Shown here in pieces: positions 54,780 to 58,531 of a stretch of 64,000 bases of DNA. The notes below the pieces were generated by a model, which worked only from the letters and a program-made list of their open reading frames with translations, ran no database searches and was not told where the DNA came from. Where the stretch lies: the NCBI RefSeq assembly GCF_000421845.1, contig NZ_ATXU01000008.1:1-64000 (forward strand). The letters run 5' to 3'. This DNA is from Leucobacter chironomi DSM 19883. Its GTDB lineage: Bacteria; Actinomycetota; Actinomycetes; Actinomycetales; Microbacteriaceae. Numbering within the stretch: position 1 is the stretch's first letter; each line of letters begins with the position of its first letter. The position numbers and the translations under genes are program-made.

Positions 54780-56582
<1,803 letters not shown>

Positions 56583-56599
56583 TCAGCCAAACACGAACA

Positions 56600-56637
56600 C
56601 CGCGACGAGGGAGGCCTGGGATTAGGACTCGTCGCGG
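56600..56637 (-). promoter_or_regulatory. leuA attenuator hairpin
   Basis: In the transcript CCGCGACGAG (56637-56628) pairs with CUCGUCGCGG (56609-56600), a perfect 10-bp stem with an 18-base loop. Its 5' arm overlaps the last codons of the leader peptide and the leader stop codon lies in the loop, so ribosome position controls folding. UGUUCGUGUUU follows and is moderately U-rich. Confidence 0.7.
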
Positions 56638-56666
56638 CAGCTAAGGAGAAGCGAGCCGAACAGCAT
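56622..56666 (-). CDS. leuL: leucine-rich leader peptide of leuA
   Basis: 14 aa: MLFGSLLLSCRDES. Four of 14 residues are Leu, with a run of three (codons CUU CUC CUU). It ends about 70 bases before leuA, on the same strand. The ATG has no ribosome-binding site but lies six bases after a TATAGT -10 box, so translation would begin at the transcript's first base. A stall at the Leu run would leave the downstream hairpin's 5' arm occupied. Leader-peptide attenuation upstream of leuA is known in Actinobacteria. The gene symbol is used by analogy. Confidence 0.75.
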   Translation of the reverse strand: MLFGSLLLSCRDES

Positions 56667-56672
56667 GCAGCC

Positions 56673-56681
56673 ACTATAGCA
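56673..56681 (-). promoter_or_regulatory. extended -10 promoter of the leuA leader
   Basis: TGCTATAGT on the minus strand is an extended -10 element (TGN plus TATAGT). The next six bases lead to the leader ATG at 56666. I find no convincing -35 element, which an extended -10 can do without. Confidence 0.65.
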
Positions 56682-56725
56682 CCGCCGGATGACACCCGTG
56701 GCGGCGCGGCCATAGGCTGGAGCGC

Positions 56726-58531
56726 ATGAGGACGATGCGGAGAACGCTGCTCGGGATCGCGGTCGCACTGCTCGGGGTCGGCGCGACAGCGGTCGCCGCG
56801 CCGATCCCGGTTGCGCATGCGGGCACCGAGGACTTCAGCTACGACAGCTGGCAGGTCGAGTACGAGGTCGGCACGGACGAGGAAGGGCGCGCCATCGCGC
56901 ACGTCACCGAGACCCTGACCGCCCGATTCCCCGACTTCGACCAGAACCGGGGCCTCGTGCGCGGGTTGCCGATCGACTACCAGGGGGCGTCGACCGATCC
57001 CCGCGACTTCTCGGTGTCCGACGCAGCCGGTGATCCGGTGCCCTTCGAGCTGGAGCACGACGACGGTTTCGTCGCGGTGCTCACGGGCGACGATCGCTAC
57101 GTGCACGGCGTGCAGATCTACGTGATCGAGTACACGCTGAGCGACGTGGTGCTCGCCCGCGACGACGGCAAGGCCGACGAGTTCTACTGGGATCTCACCG
57201 ACTTCGAGCACCAGCAGCCCATCGACGACTTCTCGGCGCGGATCTCCTTCTCCCCCGAGCTCGCCGAACGGCTGAACGGCGAAGCCCGGTGCTACTCCGG
57301 AGAACCCCGCTCCACCCAGGAGTGCACCATCACCGAGACCGACGGCGTGTTCGCCGTGTCGGGGCTCGCCCTCGGCCCGCGGGAGGGCGCCACGGTCGCG
57401 ATCGGCCTCGCAGCGGGCAGCGTGGTGCAGCCGCCGGCGCGCCTGCCGAACTTCGCGCTCGACGCACTGCCCTTCGCGGGCGCGGCCGCGGCGCTCGGCG
57501 TCGGGGTCGCCGGCCTGATCCCGGTGCTCGCGCTGCGACGCCGGAGCCGCACCGCGCGCGGTGTGATCGTGGCGCAGTACGACGTTCCCGGCTCGCTGCC
57601 GCCGCTCGTGGCCGCCCCGATCGTCGGCGGATCCTCGAACCCGGCGTCGGCGCAGCTCGTGCACCTCGCCGTGAACGGCGCCCTCCGCATCGAGGACGGC
57701 GTCCCCGAGCAGGGCCTCTTCGGGCCGAAGCAGGCGCAGCCGGTGCTGCGGCTGCTCGATCCCGAGCGGGTCGGAGATCCGCTCGACCGCGAGACCGTGC
57801 AGCAGGTGTTCCCGCACGCGACGCCGGGCGAGGCGTTCACGATCCCGAAGCAGAGCGAGTCGTTCGCCTCGAAGATGAGCAAGCTGCAGTCGAGCGGCGC
57901 CGAGCAGGCGCGTGCTCGCGGCTACTTCCGCCGGGCGCACAGCCCTGCGGGGCGCGTGCTCGGCATCGTCGGCATCGTGCTCTCCGTCGGACTGCTCGCG
58001 CTGTCTCTGACCGCCATCGCCCAGCGCGGCAGCGGAGCCGGGGTCGTCGGCCTCATCGCCGCCGCCGCAGGCGTGGTGCTCTCGATCATCGCGGTCTGCC
58101 CGCACCGCGTGCACACGACCGCCGGGGCGGAGACGCGGGAGTACCTCGAGGGGGTGCGCGAGTTCATCCGGGTCGCCGAGGCCGATCGCATCCGGATGCT
58201 GCAGTCCTATACGGGGGCGGAGCGTCTGCAGGACGGCTCCGTCGACGTGATCCACGTCTACGAGAAGCTGCTGCCCTACGCGATGCTCTTCGGGCTCGAG
58301 AAGCAGTGGACCCGGGCGCTCGCCGTGCGCTACGAGCAGAGCCCCGGCTACGTGCCGTACTGGTACCCGGCCGTCGCCGTGCACGGTCTCGGCGCCTTCG
58401 ACAGCACGATCTCGCAGTTCACGAGCTCGCTGAACTCGTCGGTGAGCTACACGTCGAGCAGTTCCGGCGGTTCGAGCGGCGGCGGCTTCAGCGGCGGCGG
58501 CGGGGGCGGCGGTTTCAGCGGCGGCCGCTGA
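56726..58531 (+). CDS. DUF2207 membrane protein
   Basis: 601 aa. Cleavable signal peptide (to about residue 32, AHAG), an extracytoplasmic beta-rich DUF2207 domain (about 35-235), one helix near 245-265, a cytoplasmic segment, a two-helix hairpin near 405-450, and a C-terminal Ser/Gly tail ending in GGGFSGGGGGGGFSGGR. Members of this family are predicted surface or envelope proteins of unknown function. A TAGGCT box seven bases before the ATG suggests a leaderless transcript. It is divergent from leuA. Confidence 0.85.
   Translation: MRTMRRTLLGIAVALLGVGATAVAAPIPVAHAGTEDFSYDSWQVEYEVGTDEEGRAIAHVTETLTARFPDFDQNRGLVRGLPIDYQGASTDPRDFSVSDAAGDPVPFELEHDDGFVAVLTGDDRYVHGVQIYVIEYTLSDVVLARDDGKADEFYWDLTDFEHQQPIDDFSARISFSPELAERLNGEARCYSGEPRSTQECTITETDGVFAVSGLALGPREGATVAIGLAAGSVVQPPARLPNFALDALPFAGAAAALGVGVAGLIPVLALRRRSRTARGVIVAQYDVPGSLPPLVAAPIVGGSSNPASAQLVHLAVNGALRIEDGVPEQGLFGPKQAQPVLRLLDPERVGDPLDRETVQQVFPHATPGEAFTIPKQSESFASKMSKLQSSGAEQARARGYFRRAHSPAGRVLGIVGIVLSVGLLALSLTAIAQRGSGAGVVGLIAAAAGVVLSIIAVCPHRVHTTAGAETREYLEGVREFIRVAEADRIRMLQSYTGAERLQDGSVDVIHVYEKLLPYAMLFGLEKQWTRALAVRYEQSPGYVPYWYPAVAVHGLGAFDSTISQFTSSLNSSVSYTSSSSGGSSGGGFSGGGGGGGFSGGR

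Follow-up and report, generated by a model that had tools for sequence, protein, structure and literature searches.

The leucine leader upstream of leuA in Leucobacter chironomi is a LEU element and probably a leaderless translational attenuator

The leuA locus

We analyzed a 64,000-nucleotide stretch of the Leucobacter chironomi DSM 19883 genome (contig NZ_ATXU01000008.1, positions 1 to 64,000; hereafter the window), in which a short leader open reading frame (ORF) and a hairpin lie directly upstream of leuA (Table 1). Among named relatives, the LeuA encoded here is closest to those of Leucobacter (86–89% identity). The original prediction had described a Leu-rich leader, a perfect 10-bp stem and a stop codon in its loop, with leuA downstream, and all of these are present on the minus strand, the two arms of the stem forming 10 of 10 pairs. 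The final T of the -10 element lies 6 bases upstream of the leader ATG, and the leuA transcript is predicted to start at this ATG (56666). A promoter scan found no -35/-10 pair at the leuA leader, which fits an extended -10 element. Two further pairings involve the leuA Shine-Dalgarno region: TTCTC (56650-56646) within the Leu codons can pair with GAGAA (56565-56561), and CTCGTC of the 3' arm has an alternative partner in GACGAG (56568-56563). The neighbouring divergent gene on the plus strand (56726-58531) appears to be leaderless too: a TAGGCT ends 7 bases before its ATG (56713-56728), around 35 bp from the -10 element of the leuA leader.

Table 1. Features of the leuA leader region, in window coordinates
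Feature	Position	Strand	Basis
Extended -10 promoter, TGC-TATAGT (TGCTATAGT)	56673..56681	-	Sequence; TANNNT at 6, 7 or 9 nt in 107/107 loci including the window
Leader ORF MLFGSLLLSCRDES, then stop; predicted leaderless (putative transcript start 56666)	56622..56666	-	Conservation; S. lividans homologue described as leaderless (PMC8079986)
Putative regulatory Leu codons CTT CTC CTT	56643..56651	-	Codon statistics, pairing computation
Hairpin 5' arm CCGCGACGAG, 5 nt 3' of the last Leu codon	56628..56637	-	Sequence, alignment
Hairpin loop, 18 nt, with leader stop TAA (56624-56622) and pseudoknot strand GGCC (56616-56613)	56610..56627	-	
Hairpin 3' arm CTCGTCGCGG	56600..56609	-	Sequence, alignment
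Downstream pseudoknot strand GGCT	56585..56588	-	Four-pair helix with loop GGCC that includes a G-U pair; weak in the window, stronger in relatives
leuA Shine-Dalgarno region GACGAGAAAG	56559..56568	-	Sequence, pairing computation
leuA, 2-isopropylmalate synthase, putative controlled gene (ATG 56549)	54780..56549	-	TIGR00970, 833 bits

Conservation across leuA loci

The arrangement was compared across 111 leuA loci, made up of the window, 80 loci and 30 further loci of the window's family. The N-terminus of LeuA was located in 107 of them; L033, L062, L069 and L093 were dropped, although the leader is visible also in the first three. A leader with a Leu run was present in all 107 (the window and 106 others), among which 104 upstream sequences are distinct. 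A TANNNT element ends 6 nt (90 loci), 7 nt (13 loci) or 9 nt (4 loci) before the leader start codon, a spacing that was partly selected because starts with a -10 element within 4–9 nt were preferred when the leader was chosen. Start codons are divided between GTG (57) and ATG (50). The last Leu codon of the leader is CTT at every one of the 107 loci. Elsewhere this codon is rare: seven genes of the window use it for none of their 296 Leu codons, and the LeuA genes of the loci use it for 121 of 4443 (2.7%). The first stop falls within the hairpin loop in 107/107 loci in the leader frame, compared with 6/107 and 2/107 when the remaining frames are read. From locus L112 upwards, this rule was itself used to choose the leader, so that stop placement counts as evidence for the 107 only. 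By these comparisons, the predicted arrangement of leader and hairpin at leuA exceeds what chance would give, and the proposal of a leaderless leader peptide with a Leu run and a hairpin at leuA gained support both from the sequence and from this strong conservation.

The leader might merely supply ribosomes to leuA by termination and reinitiation, with no sensing of leucine. Its stop codon ends 72 bases upstream of the leuA ATG, and there is a general proposal that ribosomes reinitiate at leader genes (PMC4833913), both of which would suit such a role. The Leu run and its CTT codon are nevertheless conserved in 107/107 loci, and other leucine genes are preceded by the same element; we regard this explanation as extremely unlikely.

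Stem and pseudoknot

When 76 of the 107 loci were aligned, the stem was paired in 99.3% of cells and 3 pairs showed two-sided changes. Across 236 rows from several target genes, a set that leaves out stems parsed out of register (L233, L236, L270, L272 and others), two-sided changes occur at stem positions 3, 5, 6, 8 and 9, plus one row at position 7; for example, position 3 changes from GC to AT in 22 rows. Positions 1 and 2 are invariant. At L019, L049, L089 and L092, the first two of them from Agromyces, the hairpin CCGCAGCGAG/CTCGCTGCGG accompanies AGCGAG in place of GACGAG beside the leuA Shine-Dalgarno sequence, as if the two arms and the Shine-Dalgarno-side strand had changed together.

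Support for a pseudoknot joining the loop to a strand 3' of the hairpin was assessed by comparing native pairs with swapped ones. The mean longest Watson-Crick helix was 5.32 bp in native and 4.62 bp in swapped pairs (230 rows; 0/5000 permutations), a difference that, like those in the other swapped-pair tests below, may partly reflect clades, the loci being from related genomes and not independent. Perfect helices reach 10 bp (L241). Within the family alone, the difference was small (4.72 native, 4.55 swapped), and the swap test has little power there because many members share the strand. The pseudoknot of the window itself comprises only the four pairs of GGCC:GGCU. L225 (a leuB locus without an intact leader) and L163 (misparsed) were left out of the pseudoknot and accessibility computations, and seven loci yielded no parsed element (L115, L198, L199, L235, L253, L266 and L268).

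Pairing with the leuA Shine-Dalgarno region and its accessibility

Across 106 loci, pairing between the Leu run and the Shine-Dalgarno region of leuA was computed at -9.56 kcal/mol, compared with -8.60 kcal/mol for swapped pairs (0/2000 permutations), -7.88 kcal/mol with synonymous codons (native below the median in 73/106) and -7.28 kcal/mol in a shuffled control. In the window, this pairing is short and weak (5 bp, -5.9 kcal/mol). The 3' arm also pairs with the Shine-Dalgarno region (-9.83 kcal/mol, against -7.77 kcal/mol when shuffled; better than the shuffle median in 75/106), but its swap test is weak, as 70 of 2000 permutations reach the native value, and we take this pairing as supporting evidence only and as weak in terms of covariation. 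The 5' arm, used as a control, showed no complementarity to the leuA Shine-Dalgarno region across the 106 loci. In a single minimum free energy fold, a large part of the leader is paired to the start of leuA; the fold has a z of only -2.24 and was not relied on alone.

The cost of opening the leuA Shine-Dalgarno hexamer was computed with ribosome footprints masked. Under an assumed footprint, and with pseudoknots and kinetics ignored, the mean predicted cost over 105 leuA loci was 5.62 kcal/mol for the free RNA, 2.47 kcal/mol with a ribosome at the first Leu codon of the run and 6.10 kcal/mol with a ribosome at the stop codon. Opening was easier in the stalled than in the free state in 95/105 loci (harder in 7), and easier in the stalled state than at the stop in 102/105 (harder in 3); with a wider ribosome footprint, the stalled state was the easier in 96 loci in each comparison. 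For leuA of the window, the costs were 2.52 (free), 0.98 (stalled) and 3.69 kcal/mol (stop). Shuffling of the stretch before leuA reduced the gain on stalling from 3.15 to 0.30 kcal/mol (native larger in 89/105), and when the Leu codons were resampled the free-state cost fell to 3.67 kcal/mol (native higher in 82/105).

Averages at other target genes moved the same way. Stalling lowered the cost from 4.75 to 2.81 kcal/mol at leuC loci (easier in 22/29; 4.18 free, 0.31 stalled and 4.22 kcal/mol at the stop for leuC of the window genome) and from 6.36 to 3.40 kcal/mol before a second leuA (leuA2; easier in 15/18). At leuA loci outside the family (around 66), the cost fell from 6.04 to 4.48 kcal/mol and opening was clearly easier in only 40. 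With a margin of 0.3 kcal/mol, stalling did not make opening easier than in the free state at 10/105 leuA loci of the family, 7/29 leuC loci, 3/18 leuA2 loci and 26 of the roughly 66 leuA loci outside the family. The modelled stall effect stands out most in the family of the window and weakens with distance from it.

These results bear on the level at which leuA would be controlled. Transcription attenuation, in which translation of the leader decides whether RNA polymerase stops before leuA through Rho or a non-classical terminator, has precedents in the trp and ilvB leader-peptide attenuators of actinobacteria, which are described as transcriptional, and Rho has been proposed for actinobacterial leaders that lack U-tract terminators (PMC1262725). 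However, a scan of 56450-56750 gave no terminator-like site, the hairpin lies only 50 bases away from leuA, and the predicted openness of the leuA Shine-Dalgarno sequence depends on ribosome position in a sequence-specific manner, and we consider transcription attenuation unlikely. A Rho-independent, classical trp/leu-type attenuator was rejected given the lack of a terminator-like site in this interval and of a U-tract terminator. Within 56500-56730, none of the Rfam 15 covariance models matched, with hits considered up to E=10. The earlier claim that the hairpin controls leuA holds only in part: a terminator-like site was not seen, and the observations fit control at the level of leuA translation, with the Leu codons and the 3' arm competing for the Shine-Dalgarno region.

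Relation to known systems

The leu operon attenuator of enteric bacteria consists of a Leu-rich leader before leuA, led by a Shine-Dalgarno sequence, and an intrinsic terminator. The window shares the Leu-rich leader, but neither a Shine-Dalgarno sequence for the leader nor an intrinsic terminator was seen there.

A closer counterpart is the LEU element, which Seliverstov et al. (2005; PMC1262725) reported ahead of leuA in most Actinobacteria. Its parts are a leader ORF containing consecutive Leu codons, a base stem that these codons form with the Shine-Dalgarno sequence of leuA, and a pseudoknot or alternative hairpin; there is no terminator (PMC1262725). The window locus is a LEU element: an ORF with a Leu run lies directly upstream of leuA, the base stem between Leu codons and Shine-Dalgarno sequence is present, though weak, and no terminator was seen. 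A corresponding pseudoknot may also be present: it is limited to 4 pairs in the window and the swap test has little power within the family, but it is supported over the 230 rows. The 2005 authors judged control through translation unlikely, citing Streptomyces coelicolor mutants, and proposed a binding protein (PMC1262725); their paper does not use the term 'leaderless'. Our comparison provides evidence for a translated leader.

Leaderless leaders have also been reported. LeuL1 of Streptomyces lividans TK24 (MRFGLLLLSCRGEGL) is described as a leaderless transcript before leuA without a typical Rho-independent terminator (PMC8079986); it comes from a different family and shares 10 of 14 residues with the window leader, and a peptide identical to it is encoded at 8 loci of our survey. 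In Corynebacterium glutamicum, the cg4015 leader carries four consecutive Leu codons and, like the window leader, is a Leu-codon leader peptide ahead of leuA; it is treated under transcriptional attenuation in PMC4046766. A leu leader has been reported in C. diphtheriae, with no transcript start assigned to it (PMC5784534). In Mycobacterium smegmatis, leaderless cysteine leaders are reported to act as attenuators (PMC9031893 and PMC13236596). These mycobacterial polycysteine leaders (Canestrari et al., 2020), as described in citing papers, resemble the present system in being leaderless short ORFs with a codon run, in which ribosome speed sets translation of the next gene; they differ in sensing cysteine and in their RNA, the 2005 paper having reported no conserved terminator hairpin there. 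With the 2005 LEU element, LeuL1 and the M. smegmatis cysteine leaders already reported, both the element and leaderless attenuation have precedents. The view that leaderless attenuation would be an unusual form of this control finds no support, because a similar leader in S. lividans was already described as leaderless.

Copies before leuC, a second leuA and transporters

A covariance model search of the window genome retrieved three elements with E below 1e-6, before leuA, leuC and a major facilitator superfamily (MFS) transporter. The leuC copy (L113, C8:139548-139626) has the leader MRRRQLLLPCRDGV, and the transporter copy (L114, C2:198110-198190) has the leader MTARLLLRRRSRP and the stem CCGCAGCAGG/CCTGCTGCGG, both leaders ending in a stop codon. 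This MFS transporter has no specific family assignment and is divergent from a GntR/FCD regulator. A further match (L115, E 0.37) lies inside an open frame resembling a transporter and was set aside.

Relatives were sampled from longer lists of matches (19 Microbacteriaceae genomes, 61 regions of other families and 40 of the genus). In 19/19 sampled Microbacteriaceae genomes with two copies, leuA and leuC are the genes that follow them, each behind its own copy; one of these genomes has a third match, which was not among the regions compared. Within the genus, all 41 genomes have at least one match (one in 4, two in 10, three in 23 and four in 4), and the 40 regions sampled, mostly third or fourth copies, comprise 27 with a second LeuA (around 50–57% identical; element unparsed in 3 of the 27), 9 with leuC and 4 with a transporter (L267, L269, L270 and L278). 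The three transporters scanned, all but L269, are MFS proteins, and the stems in the four regions were placed poorly by the parser; one genus transporter that was compared with the MFS protein of the window genome showed no similarity to it. Overall, the 172 parsed loci are divided into 91 LeuA, 24 LeuA2, 29 LeuC, 21 LeuB, 1 MFS and 6 unassigned, with two leuA2 loci of the genus (L265 and L274) tallied under LeuA in codon and leader counts by a 56% identity cut.

The element was matched in 361 of 394 genomes in a class-wide search and in 30 of 296 in a phylum-wide search, four of the latter lying outside the class. In these four genomes of the same phylum, the match lies before leuA (L150, L163, L169 and L170). 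A family f11 genome (L166) has an element with the leader MSWQKLLVTRRSGV, ending in a stop codon, before genes that are not leuA, leuB or leuC by tblastn. The 2005 description covered leuA and one transposase, and the targets here also include leuC, leuA2, leuB and transporters. In the literature searched, mainly titles and abstract openings, we found no report of the element before any of these additional targets. The three predicted elements of the window genome and the copies predicted before a second leuA and leuB in relatives go beyond the 2005 description.

Elements at leuB and the putatively sensed amino acid

Outside the family, copies precede leuB at 21 loci, one of them without an intact leader. 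Val, Ile and Leu codons replace the Leu run in leuB leaders, for example MRQVLVLITCRGGA, MRSVFVLIDCRGEA and MTQRVVILIRRGEFR. Rare codons are again preferred: Val is encoded by GTA in 19/32 cases (1.9% in LeuB genes), Ile by ATT in 7/21 (2.5%) and Leu by CTT in 11/29 (1.7%). That the rare-codon bias is kept at leuB argues that these codons are read by ribosomes. The Val/Ile/Leu runs do not resemble an anti-Shine-Dalgarno strand. leuB starts further downstream, mostly behind a small conserved ORF, which is too far for the exact leuA model, and the exact mechanism may therefore differ there. By eye, a small ORF of around 19–50 amino acids ending in a motif like Q.ALD.RDNGG lies between the element and leuB in 19 of 22 regions (L192, L193, L196, L211-L214, L217, L218, L220, L224-L227, L239, L240, L244, L248 and L249) and was not seen in L215, L246 and L250. 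Three examples of this ORF had no match in Pfam or NCBIfam.

The leuB leaders also bear on the 2005 proposal, in which the pseudoknot and base stem would form the binding site of a regulatory protein (ML1624 orthologues; PMC1262725) and translation of the leader would be incidental. The hairpin arms are indeed highly conserved in sequence, and the 2005 authors preferred a protein on the strength of mutation data (PMC1262725). A protein-binding site would not, however, account readily for a leader frame and a stop in the loop that are kept in 107/107 loci, for the rare-codon bias in the leaders or for a switch of the putative regulatory codons to Val/Ile/Leu at leuB with the remaining architecture unchanged, and we judge this explanation very unlikely.

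Proposed mechanism and its meaning

We consider it likely that the window locus is a leaderless, leucine-sensing translational attenuator of leuA, belonging to the LEU element. Conservation, covariation, codon bias, the placement of frame and stop and the predicted opening energies are computed observations; in the scheme that we infer for the transcript start, the stalling and the direction of control, the RNA would begin at the leader ATG and a ribosome would load onto the bare 5' end. With no ribosome on the leader, or once the leader has been translated, the Leu run would act as a CU-rich anti-Shine-Dalgarno strand on the leuA Shine-Dalgarno sequence and leuA would be off. A ribosome that has reached the stop codon within the loop would cover the 5' arm, and the freed 3' arm could pair with the Shine-Dalgarno region too, which would also keep leuA off. 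When leucyl-tRNA is short, the ribosome would stall at the rare CTT codons and cover the Leu run, leaving the hairpin, and with it the pseudoknot, intact; the 3' arm would stay occupied and the leuA Shine-Dalgarno sequence would be exposed. The opening-cost and shuffle results suggest this model, in which leuA would be open only with a ribosome stalled on the Leu codons. Several points count against it. The Leu:Shine-Dalgarno pairing of the window is short and its pseudoknot has 4 pairs, any CU-rich codon run pairs with a Shine-Dalgarno sequence to some degree, and mutations in the S. coelicolor leuA leader are reported in PMC1262725 to have had some effect, though one inconsistent with classical attenuation.

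For the organism, the leader and hairpin would most likely let the cell gauge its leucine supply. The 2005 paper left the mechanism open and judged control by leader translation unlikely, and our comparison argues for a translated, stalling leader that uncovers a ribosome-binding site, a model that is separable by test from those invoking a terminator or a binding protein. On the wider scale, we lean towards the view that the leucine regulon (leuA, a second leuA, leuC, leuB and MFS transporters) uses the LEU element as a portable, leaderless attenuator of translation. Its sensing codons would at the same time serve as the anti-Shine-Dalgarno strand, and the gene would be exposed only by a ribosome stalled on them. 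During evolution, exchange of the codon run (a Leu run at leuA and leuC, Val-Ile-Leu at leuB) would have altered which amino acid is sensed, with the hairpin, the stop in the loop and the pseudoknot retained. MFS transporters under such a leader would then be candidates for the transport of leucine or branched-chain amino acids, and the small ORF before leuB a candidate for the same pathway.
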